DNA from: Brasilonema sp. UFV-L1
GTDB taxonomy: Bacteria > Cyanobacteriota > Cyanobacteriia > Cyanobacteriales > Nostocaceae
Direction: 5' to 3'
Assembly: GCF_012912105.1 (NCBI RefSeq)
Contig: NZ_QMEA01000009.1
Coordinates: 1-64,000, forward strand
DNA: 64,000 nucleotides
The notes under the pieces are model-generated. The model ran no database searches and had not been told where the DNA came from. It was given only the letters and a program-made list of their open reading frames with translations. Below are positions 4,397 through 60,728 of this stretch, piece after piece. Each line of letters begins with the position of its first letter. The first letter of the stretch is position 1. The position numbers and the translations under genes are program-made.

Positions 4397-4557
4397 AATA
4401 ACCAGATTAGCAAACATAAGTCACCATATTAATCTCCATCATTGGAATTTTTTATTAAATTTTTGCTCACAATATCAATACTAAACAAAGCTTAATAAAA
4501 GCGAAGAATTAACATTTTGTTACTCATCATCAAGATATATTTAGTTTTTAACGACTA

Positions 4558-4584
4558 CTTTCTTTCTTTCTTTCTTTCTTTCTT
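4558..4584. repeat. CTTT microsatellite
   Basis: Six CTTT units in a row plus a partial unit, followed by a C-rich pyrimidine tract. It is a pure simple repeat in a noncoding region. Confidence 0.85.
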
Positions 4585-5045
4585 CCTTACACCCCTACAC
4601 CCCTTCTTCCCCACATAAGGCAGTTTGAGAACTTGAGGTTGAGAAAAAGTAGGTGATGATTGCTATTCTTCGACTATTCTGGAGTTTTTAACTGTTTCCT
4701 GTAAATACCGCTTCAAAAAAAAACTTGCATTGCTCATCGTTAAGAAAGATAAAGTAGATCTGACTAAAAAAAGGTGAGTCTCAACGTCTTAGTCATTGGG
4801 ATCAGAAAATTCATTATGAAGGTTGAATGGCTTGAGATGATTTATATATCTACAGTTGGATAACATTTCGTTTCAAAATAAACATAATTAAACAATACAA
4901 ATAAAAAAATAACAGCTAATTTTGTGTTATTTTAGACGATATATAATTTATCGTTTGTTGTTTGTTGTTGAGTTTCGTAAATCTTTTAGATTTACAGGTT
5001 GAATTTACGTTTTTTCAAAAGAGCATGACATATAAGGGTTTCAAA

Positions 5046-5309: not shown

Positions 5310-6407
5310 TCAGGATTCAGAACTTGGAACCTTTTTGACTCGCAACTGTCCACAAGCAGCATCAGCTTCTAAACCACGGGAGTAGCGAACACTAACTGCT
5401 ATTTGTTGCTGCTTGAGGACTTTAACAAAAGCTTGAATTCGATTTTGGTTGGGGCGTTTGTAGTCTGCTTCTGTGATGGGATTGTATGGAATCAAATTAA
5501 CGTGACTCTGAAATCCTCGCAGGTGTCGTGTTAATTCTAGTGCATGTTCTGGCAAATCGTTCACGCCAGCAAGGAGAATATATTCAAAACTCACACGACG
5601 CCCAGTCATTTTTACATACTCCCGACATTCAGCAAGCAAATCTTCTATAGGATAAGAACGAGCGCTGGGAATGAGTTGTTCCCGCAGTGCTTGGTTGGGA
5701 GCATGAAGACTCACAGCAAGAGTGACTTGCAACTGATGTTGAGCAAAGGAGCGAATGCGATCGCGTATTCCAACAGTAGAGACAGTCAAGTTACGCTGTC
5801 CAATACCCACATCTTGATTTAAAGATTTGATAGCTCCTATAACATGATCTGTATTCAACAACGGTTCACCCATACCCATAAATACCACATGGCTGACTCG
5901 TTGTTGAAAATCCTCCTGAACTGTCAGCACCTGATCAACGATTTCATGACGTGCTAAATTGCGTTTATAACCTTCTTTACCAGTCGCACAGAAATCACAC
6001 GCCATCGGACAACCGACTTGAGTTGAAACGCAAACAGTCAGGCGCTTTTCTGCGGGGATACCGACACATTCAATAATTTGATTATCTGCAAGTTGCAAAA
6101 GATATTTGACAGTGCCATCAGAGGCGACAGAGCGGTAATGTATGTTTGAGCGTCCAATTGGAATTTCTGCAACTTCAGCACGCCATTGTTTAGGAAAGAC
6201 AGAAATATCCGAGAGCGATCGCACTCCCTTTTGATAAATCCATTCGTGCAGTTGCTTTCCTCTGTAAGCAGGTTGTCCCTGATTATATACCCAAGCGGTT
6301 AACTCCTCTAAACCTGCTCCGACAAGCGGTGGAATAGAGAAGTTTGCCTGTTGCGCAATATTACTAGTTTTGGGGGAAGGGAGTACAGGGACAGACTTAG
6401 CAGACAT
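5310..6407 (-). CDS. rlmN: RlmN, dual-specificity 23S rRNA/tRNA adenine-C2 methyltransferase
   Basis: The 365-residue radical-SAM enzyme methylates A2503 of 23S rRNA and A37 of some tRNAs. The CxxxCxxC cluster-binding motif is visible ([12 protein letters not shown]). GMGEPLLN and the C-terminal cysteine that carries the methyl intermediate (AACGQL) are also present. The N-terminal accessory domain has the expected [12 protein letters not shown]. Length is normal. It lies 27 bp downstream of the ATL gene on the same strand, so the two probably form an operon. Confidence 0.97.
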
Positions 6408-21253: not shown

Positions 21254-21377
21254 TAGACCTCTTGCAAAAGTCAAAAATCGTGAATGTCATTCTGAGCGAA
21301 ACGCAGTGTAGCGAGGAATCTCAGAGATGTTTCGCTCCGCTCAACATGACAATTCAAGCATTTTTGCAAGAGGTCTA
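21254..21377. mobile_element. 124-bp MITE-like element
   Basis: Perfect 16-bp terminal inverted repeats (TAGACCTCTTGCAAAA at 21254-21269 and its complement at 21362-21377) both end in TA, which could be a TA target duplication of Tc1/IS630 type. The inside is a second palindrome (TGTCATTCTGAGCG to AACATGACA). It has no coding capacity. Confidence 0.8.
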
Positions 21378-56086: not shown

Positions 56087-58531
56087 ATGTCGTTACCAGA
56101 AAGCTTCCTGACACAACTGGAGCAATATAGTGAATTGTCGCAACGAGAAAAGGAAGTTTTTCTGGAAATATTTGGTCGTGGCAAAAGTCGAGTCGAAGTC
56201 ACTCAAGCGATTAACATCTCCGATAGCAATCTCGGTAGCTGCTTAACAGGAATATACAAGAAATTCAGCATTAGTGGTAGTGGTCCTATTAAAGAAAACC
56301 GCCTGCGGGAGTACTTGAGCAAAAGATACGCGCAGCAGCAACCCTCTGGTCACTTAACTATTGATATTTCAGATAATGATATAGATACGTTAGTTCAAGA
56401 AATCCGTGAACAAGTCAAACCCAGCATCAAAGAACGCTGTGGAACCATGCGCGTGCTGGACATGACTCAACCGATTGAGTTGACTGGAGAACGGGGTATT
56501 TATACCAACGTCAATATTTTGGAGAAAATCACAGGACGCAGGCGACAAGAAATTGCAGAACTGCTGCAAAACTGTGACGTGGAAAATTTTGAGCGCTTTG
56601 GACTTAGCCGCGTGAGTGAGAAACGAGTACCAGGACTGGAGGCGGTACAACGGTACAGTAAGCTGATAGTGTTGGGGAAACCAGGAGCAGGAAAAACCAC
56701 GTTTTTGAAGTATTTGGCGATGCAGTGCATTCAGGAACAGTTTCAGACAAACCGAGTTCCCTTGTTTATCACTCTCAAGAATTTTGCAGAAGAATCCAAA
56801 CAGCCAAATATTCTGGAATATATTGCTCAACAGTTGTCGGTTTGCGGGGTGAGTGACGCTAACCTCAAAGTAGAGGAACTACTGAGACAGGGTAAAGCAT
56901 TGATATTGCTCGATGGGTTGGATGAAGTTCGAGAAGAAGATACAAAGCGGATTTTACGGCAAATTCGGGAGGTTTGTGATCAGTTTCACACAAATCAGTT
57001 GGTCATCACCTGTCGTATTGCTTCCAAAGAATATACCTTTGAACGGTTCACCGAAGTGGAAGTGGCAGATTTTGATGAGGAGCAAATCGCTATCTTTGCT
57101 CAAAACTGGTTTAGAGCTAAAGACTTCGATAATTGTCATGCTGAATGGAGCGATAGCGGAGTGAAGCATCTCGAAGATTCTAAAGATTCTGGATTCTATG
57201 TCCTTCGGACACGCTTCGCTAACACTCCACTGCGTTCCGCTCAGAATGACAAGGCAGAGAAGTTCATTCAAAAACTGAAGGATAACAAGCCAATTCAAGA
57301 ACTAGCAACTAATCCCTTGCTGCTGACTTTACTTTGTTTGGTCTTTGGTGAAGCTGGAAATTTTCCGGTCAATCGTTCCGAACTTTATAAAGAAGGTTTG
57401 GACGTGTTGCTGAAAAAATGGGATGCCAAACGCAACATAGAGCGAGATCAGGTTTATAAAAACCTGTCTTTACAACGCAAGGAAGACTTACTAAGTCAAA
57501 TTGCCTTAACTACATTTGAGCAGAAGGACTATTTCTTTAAGCAAAAAACTGTTGAAGCATACATTGCTGATTTTATTCGCAACTTACGCGATGCTCGTAC
57601 TGAGCCAAAGGAATTAGAACTGGACAGCGAAGCTGTTTTGAGGTCGATTGAAGGACAGCATGGGCTACTGGTGGAACGGGCAAAGGGGATTTATTCCTTT
57701 TCACATCTGACGTTTCAGGAGTATTTTGCTGCATGGGAAATTGTTGCGAATTCTGCATGGGAAAAGTTGGTGGAGCATATTACGGAGAAACGCTGGCGAG
57801 AGGTGTTTTTACTCACTGCTGGGATGATGAGGAAGGCTGATGATTTGGTGTGGTTCATGAAGCGGAAGGTTGATGGTTTGGTTGCTTCGGATGAAAAGTT
57901 ACAGGAGTTTCTTACCTGGAACAATCACAAGTCTCTTTCAGAGGATTTACCTTATAAACCAATCGCAGTTCGAGCATTTTACTTCCTATTTTATCTTTCA
58001 AAAATTAAGCCTACAGCTGCTCGTTCTGTTGCTAAATTTTTTGCTAACACTTTTGATATAGGCTTTAAGTTATCATCTAAATTAGAAGTTGAGATTGTTC
58101 TTGCTCGAGTGATTGATGAAGCTGTCATGATTTCTTACAACTTTGGTCGTGCTCATACCCGTACTCAAGCGATTCATCTTCTTTATGACATTGATACTGT
58201 TATTGAGCTAGATCATGAGTTACGGTACCAGATAGAAGACCTCAAGTGTCAACTCCCTGATCCTTTTCAAAGAGAATTTAAGGAGTGGTGGCAAATTAAA
58301 GGTAAAGTCTGGATTGAGCAACTGAGAGCCATGATGATTGAGCATCGCAATATTGGGCATGATTGGCAGTTCAGCGAAGCACAAAAGCAACTCTTGCAAC
58401 AGTATTACGATGCCAATAAACTACTAGTAGACTGCTTAAATAGTGATTGTTATGTCAGCCGCGAAGTCAGACAGGAAATTGAGGAGACTTTGCTGTTACC
58501 TATGGCGGAGATTGAGAAACGACAGGGGTGA
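56087..58531 (+). CDS. NACHT-domain STAND ATPase with N-terminal HTH
   Basis: The 814-residue protein resembles bacterial NACHT proteins of the NLR-like defence type. Residues about 10-80 form a helix-turn-helix (LSQREKEVFLEIFGRG). The NACHT core has Walker A VLGKPGAGKTTF near 197 and Walker B ALILLDGLDEV near 271, then ATNPLLLTLLCLVF and the SFSHLTFQEYFAAW sensor region. The C-terminal 250 residues are helical and were not matched. Residues about 349-389 are encoded by a palindromic repeat element inserted in frame. Such ATPases oligomerise on ligand binding; the antiviral role is inferred from homologues. Confidence 0.88.
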   Translation: MSLPESFLTQLEQYSELSQREKEVFLEIFGRGKSRVEVTQAINISDSNLGSCLTGIYKKFSISGSGPIKENRLREYLSKRYAQQQPSGHLTIDISDNDIDTLVQEIREQVKPSIKERCGTMRVLDMTQPIELTGERGIYTNVNILEKITGRRRQEIAELLQNCDVENFERFGLSRVSEKRVPGLEAVQRYSKLIVLGKPGAGKTTFLKYLAMQCIQEQFQTNRVPLFITLKNFAEESKQPNILEYIAQQLSVCGVSDANLKVEELLRQGKALILLDGLDEVREEDTKRILRQIREVCDQFHTNQLVITCRIASKEYTFERFTEVEVADFDEEQIAIFAQNWFRAKDFDNCHAEWSDSGVKHLEDSKDSGFYVLRTRFANTPLRSAQNDKAEKFIQKLKDNKPIQELATNPLLLTLLCLVFGEAGNFPVNRSELYKEGLDVLLKKWDAKRNIERDQVYKNLSLQRKEDLLSQIALTTFEQKDYFFKQKTVEAYIADFIRNLRDARTEPKELELDSEAVLRSIEGQHGLLVERAKGIYSFSHLTFQEYFAAWEIVANSAWEKLVEHITEKRWREVFLLTAGMMRKADDLVWFMKRKVDGLVASDEKLQEFLTWNNHKSLSEDLPYKPIAVRAFYFLFYLSKIKPTAARSVAKFFANTFDIGFKLSSKLEVEIVLARVIDEAVMISYNFGRAHTRTQAIHLLYDIDTVIELDHELRYQIEDLKCQLPDPFQREFKEWWQIKGKVWIEQLRAMMIEHRNIGHDWQFSEAQKQLLQQYYDANKLLVDCLNSDCYVSREVRQEIEETLLLPMAEIEKRQG
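57133..57252. mobile_element. Palindromic element inserted in frame in NACHT gene
   Basis: The 120-bp segment has 20-base arms (57133-57152 and 57233-57252) complementary at 16 of 20 positions, TTGTCATTCTGAGCGGAACG being one arm reversed. Its length equals 40 codons and it adds no stop. Relatives of the protein usually run from WFRAKD to KAEKFIQKL without it. The same palindrome family forms the inside of the element at 21254-21377. Confidence 0.8.
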
Positions 58532-60105: not shown

Positions 60106-60441
60106 TCAGGATAATACTTGTAAAATTGCTTCTATTTGCTGCTTCAGGTTTGGCAAATCTCGCTCAACAGCAAACCAAACCACGTCTAAATCAATTTCAA
60201 AGTAATTGTGAGTCAAAATATTTCGCATCCCGATAATTTGTGACCAAGGTACTTCGGGATGTTGTAACTTAATGTCAGCAGATAAGGCGCGAGATGCTTC
60301 ACCGATAATTTGCAGATGTTGAATAAACCAAGTTTGAATCAGTTCATTTTGTTCAAAGCTTTGCCTTCCTTGAATTGCGTACTTGTCTATACGTTCAATT
60401 GCTTCTAAGATATCACGCAATTTTTCGCGATCGTCTCTCAT
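60106..60441 (-). CDS. hepT: HepT-family toxin (DUF86)
   Basis: The 111-residue HEPN protein has the R-x4-H motif (RNILTHNYF, near residues 73-81). HepT is a ribonuclease toxin controlled by its MntA partner, which AMPylates it in known pairs. It overlaps the MntA gene by 4 bp (ATGA). Confidence 0.9.
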
Positions 60442-60728
60442 AACGGAACAGCTTCTGTTAAAACCCGTTCCCGAATACGCTGGCGTAATCCCTTTTCAGT
60501 TACCACATCTACATCACGATCCAGTAGCTGTTGCAACTCCATCAGCAGTCCACCTAAGTCAAAAAGGCTTCGTCCAGGTTCCATTTCTACCAGAAAATCA
60601 ACATCACTGTCTGCATCAGCCTCTCGGCGTGCCACAGAACCAAAAATACGTACGTTGTATGCTCCATGTTTAGCAGCACTTCGGAGGATTTCTTCTCGTT
60701 TTGCTTGCAAAAGGTCGTAAACATTCAT
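60438..60728 (-). CDS. mntA: MntA-family antitoxin nucleotidyltransferase
   Basis: The 96-residue minimal nucleotidyltransferase has [18 protein letters not shown], the GSx10DxD motif of the MNT family. It would transfer AMP to the HepT toxin to silence it. The gene precedes hepT as usual. Confidence 0.9.

Follow-up and report, generated by a model that had tools for sequence, protein, structure and literature searches.

A palindromic repeat inserted in-frame in a NACHT ATPase gene of the cyanobacterium Brasilonema sp. UFV-L1

Rickettsia palindromic elements (RPEs) are usually taken as selfish DNA that is tolerated in proteins. They are represented by palindromic repeats of about 150 bp, located in-frame in protein-coding genes (PMC10969869). 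Another example is presented by the intragenic GTAG/CGTC REP elements, short palindromes found in-frame within ORFs of several bacteria, whose hosts are mixed and include many DNA-repair genes, with different REPs found at about the same recB site in two Xanthomonas species (PMC3733652). STAND proteins also vary by another route, that of the DGR-diversified STAND/NACHT conflict systems, in which the sensor domain is hypermutated via reverse transcription (PMC10907252). Most known in-frame palindromes come from Rickettsia, with a few REP-bearing bacteria in addition, and their host genes are mixed. We describe at least six in one cyanobacterial genome, mostly in NLR-like STAND NTPases, one of them within the window, by which we mean the whole 64,000-nucleotide stretch analysed (positions 1 to 64,000 of contig NZ_QMEA01000009.1).

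The event in the window is of the already known Rickettsia type, a palindromic repeat inserted in-frame in a coding gene, that of a NACHT ATPase, whose homologues are without it, but it belongs to another phylum, and the likeness to RPEs is one of kind and not of compared sequence. Unlike elements residing in many unrelated genes and encoding a conserved peptide, about 50 elements are present here with few in-frame cases, in varying reading frames, and with hosts concentrated among the STAND NTPases (four of six). With the intragenic REPs these insertions share the in-frame placement of short palindromes, sometimes at a nearly identical site in homologous genes, but the arms are of the TGTCAT type and the modules often lie within MITE shells; the association with Y1/RAYT genes that would be typical of REPINs was sought in the gene flanks and not found. 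As in the DGR systems, STAND immune-type proteins of multicellular bacteria gain variation from a process related to mobile elements, but in the present case the variation comes from whole repeats inserted in linkers.

The module (57133 to 57252; TTGTCATGCTGA...CTCAGAATGACAA) is exactly 120 nt long, or 40 codons, and free of stops in the NACHT frame, in agreement with the original prediction of a 120-bp element of 40 codons inside this gene. Its first base is the third of a codon, and only one of its three forward frames is open, the one in use. The 20-base inverted arms of that prediction are also present, at 57133 to 57152 and 57233 to 57252, but they are imperfect, complementary at 16 of 20 positions, which is why they escaped a repeat search seeded with 9 nt. 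The fold energy of the strand is -47.4 kcal/mol (z = -4.3), none of 200 shuffles being equally stable, and Rfam recognizes no RNA families at 56900 to 57500. Nested at 57199 to 57223 is a smaller dispersed element (TGTCCTTCGGACACGCTTCGCTAAC) of about 24 bp net, and it occurs alone and inside other modules, standing alone also in other genomes of the genus. We take it to resemble the cyanobacterial small dispersed repeats, and Elhai et al., in 2008, reportedly described mobile repeats of this kind, very small and nested, from genomes of the Nostoc type. The peptide encoded by the insert is exemplified by HLEDSKDSGFYVLR. The copy in the NACHT gene is naked, with no MITE shell and no target duplication evident, and thus does not qualify as a MITE.

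The host gene (56087 to 58531, plus strand) encodes a protein of 814 aa, with Pfam NACHT at residues 193-344 (PF05729, 65.6 bits versus a curated cut-off of 26.7) and NCH2 at residues 713-805. Its Walker A motif GKPGAGKT (56675 to 56698, residues 197-204) and Walker B region LILLDGLDE (56900 to 56926, residues 272-280) are invariant at nearly every position in the alignment, and past the insert the motif NPLLLTLL (57311 to 57334, residues 409-416) has an invariant PLLLT (410-414), all three on the plus strand. The structural neighbours are NOD2, NLRC4, and NLRP3 (Z of about 14-15 over about 250 residues of a low-confidence model), these being Foldseek's own best chains, a list in which the absence of a family was given no weight, and the model, of low confidence as it is, is consistent with an NLR-like NBD-HD1-WHD fold. 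Sequence search of solved structures gave no match. The named anti-phage NACHT families EruA and DS8 (NCBIfam) were rejected, with 49.8 bits versus an equivalog cut-off of 1000, and 31.2 versus 790, respectively.

In the orthologues of Brasilonema sp. CT11 (G005) and of two further genomes, G001 and G004 (89-91% identity), the match ends at residue 346 and restarts at about residue 389, with 6 nt between. When exactly 57133 to 57252 is deleted in silico, 774 codons and a stop remain, reading NWFRAKDFDKAEKFIQ, collinear with NWFRLSDAVKGKSFIQ of the CT11 orthologue, which is also of 774 aa, about 90% identical and without the insert. The original prediction looked to NACHT homologues for the absence of this segment, and those without residues 349-388 are indeed abundant, including many more distant ones; the opposite outcome, the same 40 residues shared across many genera, did not materialize in 59 relatives, none of the examined homologues possessing them. 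In these 59 relatives the insert peptide is found in a clearly similar long ORF in this gene only, the sole other long-ORF match being at 30% identity (E = 0.43), and the remaining matches lie in short, often interrupted frames. By this comparison, 57133 to 57252 is an insertion and not ancestral sequence. The gene is intact and under purifying selection, with dN/dS versus CT11 of 0.174 overall, and of 0.15 and 0.18 in the parts before and after the insert, a whole-branch average not datable to the time after insertion. Lineage counts are 29.75 nonsynonymous to 50.25 synonymous changes, against 20.5 to 40.5, with no marked amino-acid excess on the window lineage.

In two AlphaFold runs, of low mean pLDDT (58 and 55), the insert (about residues 349-388) is modelled as coil with pLDDT < 50, and its placement, which rests on the alignment too, is between helices 331-351 and 388-399 (first-run numbering), ahead of NPLLLTLL and within the HD1-like domain. 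The 40 residues are thus predicted to form a loop without order, joining helices 1 and 2 of those that follow the nucleotide-binding core. The loop once proposed is in this way seen, as a predicted disordered segment of low-confidence models; as to its place between the NACHT core and the helical region, it does lie past the core, Pfam NACHT ending at residue 344, but it interrupts HD1 itself, between helices 1 and 2.

The family is well represented in the whole genome, where related stretches number at least 46, the arm pattern GTCATNYTGARYG is matched exactly 98 times versus 13 for the reversed control, and about 50 two-armed modules lie around 72 merged sites, as counted by pattern searches and in fetched stretches. 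Most modules are the cores of MITEs whose ends are unrelated: GGCGTTGCTGA (with 8-bp duplications), AGACCTCTTGCA (with TA), AGAGGATGTCTGA, GGACTTACGCA, and others. One example is the free copy originally reported at 21254 to 21377, which proved real: it is an intergenic MITE bounded by TA on both sides, whose 16-bp ends (TAGACCTCTTGCAAAA) are perfect and which holds the same module at 21285 to 21351. The GGCGTTGCTGA shell with its 8-bp duplication also carries several other, unrelated palindromic cores, suggesting exchange between core and shell. Mobilisation by RAYT, considered as well, gained no support from the flanks of the 12 Y1 transposase genes: the module adjoins none of 11, and arms are found near only one (C104), within a MITE inside the ORF and also elsewhere on that contig. 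A search of plasmids for the module returned one 40-bp match only, and the open-access literature returned no report of the arm sequence or of a STAND host bias. Short ORFs across other modules were treated as spurious, and several overlaps of ORFs with the arm pattern are probably fortuitous, 13-mers that arose by chance within ordinary genes.

At least five further in-frame insertions are present in the same genome, for a total of six, and these five hosts are two NACHT proteins, a CHAT-STAND-TPR protein, a TPR-CHAT protein, and a Y1 transposase, all aligned with homologues without the insert. One example is the second NACHT protein (C177, at about 4540-4880), with TGTCATTCTGAG (TGTCAT) half-modules in a 21-codon tandem array, which holds a 100-N assembly gap, in the same HD1 linker. 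Another is a NACHT-HEAT protein (C79) with five tandem in-frame half-modules, mostly of 18 codons each and with a nested sub-element among them, just past the Walker A helix. The CHAT-STAND-TPR protein (C271) possesses an in-frame module of the TTGCGAG type in the linker ahead of the TPRs, common to three genomes (the source genome, CT11 contig C2, and G006 contig C136) and missing from four relatives, and the CT11 gene has gained a further 24-nt sub-element, also in-frame. A partial MITE is in-frame in the TPR-CHAT protein (C147), and a whole TA-flanked MITE is in-frame near the C-terminus of the Y1 transposase (C104, 4454-4521 of the fetched stretch). The orthologue of the window gene in Tolypothrix campylonemoides possesses, in the same linker (6060-6145 of the fetched stretch), an unrelated GC-rich hairpin repeat of the CCCTCCCC type, with 88 pattern matches in its genome versus 0 for the reversed pattern (both strands, up to 2 mismatches). 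The G037 homologue has a 36-residue insert in the same linker, not counted as a repeat since it is single copy in its genome.

Most likely, a selfish palindromic repeat has inserted once, in-frame, and is tolerated at the HD1 linker of a gene that still works. A small non-autonomous TGTCAT...ATGACA module would have inserted in the NACHT gene of this lineage in a single event, by some mechanism that left no target duplication. Its length of 120 bp, together with an insertion in the sole forward frame that is open, would explain why 40 codons were added without a stop. The added residues would make a disordered loop joining helices 1 and 2 of the HD1-like domain, a linker tolerant of length change, and thus the protein, if made, probably still folds and works, the insert being presumably close to neutral. 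The insertion would be mainly selfish DNA that survived where the harm was small, by a process that has been repeated in this genome, with survivors concentrated in STAND NTPases and at least one older insert seemingly retained as protein. Such inserts, most likely, are selfish repeats living on in tolerant linkers, with occasional domestication.

The original prediction went further and called the NACHT copy domesticated. Under such a proposal the loop would change the way in which HD1 moves, nucleotides are exchanged, or oligomers assemble, and STAND proteins would recurrently vary their linkers via captured palindromes, which we consider unlikely for this copy, even if several data are in line with it. 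One is the choice of hosts, four of six being STAND, while STAND genes make up about 1.6% of coding sequence in an 800-kb sample, chosen by contig and not at random, and searched with home-made profiles that may miss STANDs; for a STAND frequency of 1.6% the binomial probability is about 1e-6, and for one of 8% it is 5e-4, or 4e-5 and 5e-3 with the window copy left out, the six cases being derived from two arm patterns. This excess may result from long, linker-rich proteins tolerating more inserts, without any benefit, and insertion preference and survival are not separable from these data. Another is that the same HD1 linker has been struck in both an orthologue and a paralogue. A third is the CHAT-STAND-TPR insert, in which CT11 and the source genome differ by 8.5 synonymous changes per 27 sites and 5.5 nonsynonymous changes per 87 (pS 0.31, pN 0.06; Fisher P = 0.004 after rounding of the counts to 8 and 6), a test of few changes in one gene, suggestive but not conclusive of an insert constrained and retained as protein. 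The NACHT insert, on the other hand, is present in one genome only, its peptide is not conserved, and it is predicted disordered, so that tolerance is the simpler reading, and the in-frame inserts of the genome use several reading frames. Domestication is thus better supported for the CHAT-STAND-TPR insert than for the NACHT copy. A broader proposal, that in multicellular cyanobacteria palindromic repeats recurrently supply new linkers to NLR-like immune ATPases, entering in-frame at preferred loops (notably between HD1 helices 1 and 2), followed by tandem expansion or uptake of smaller repeats, some selected for tuning activation, we offer only as speculation.

Damage to the gene is somewhat less likely still, through an mRNA hairpin cut by RNase III or stalling ribosomes, or through a loop blocking folding, with the gene becoming a pseudogene. 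The low fold energy of the module would fit such a scenario, as would the related orthologues, one of which is truncated to an open frame of 539 aa (G004) while another has a stop (G009), but the window gene has a full-length open frame, intact catalytic motifs, and a constraint that is not relaxed on the window lineage. An assembly artefact or chimera that placed the repeat in the gene is most improbable, even for a draft genome of 337 contigs with many repeats, as the copy is unique (the nearest other long copies are 78-82% identical), the two flanks match, collinearly, the two halves of a single orthologue, and the insert preserves the frame exactly.

The same structural linker was struck in two different proteins and in the orthologue of another genus, providing a natural, directly testable collection of immune-type switches with inserted loops, and in one case, that of the CHAT-STAND-TPR protein, a captured repeat is apparently maintained as protein. 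The wider pattern merits a systematic survey. As to the surroundings of the NACHT gene, two small adjoining ORFs are found downstream on the minus strand (60106 to 60728), which by eye resemble a toxin-antitoxin pair of the HepT/MNT type.
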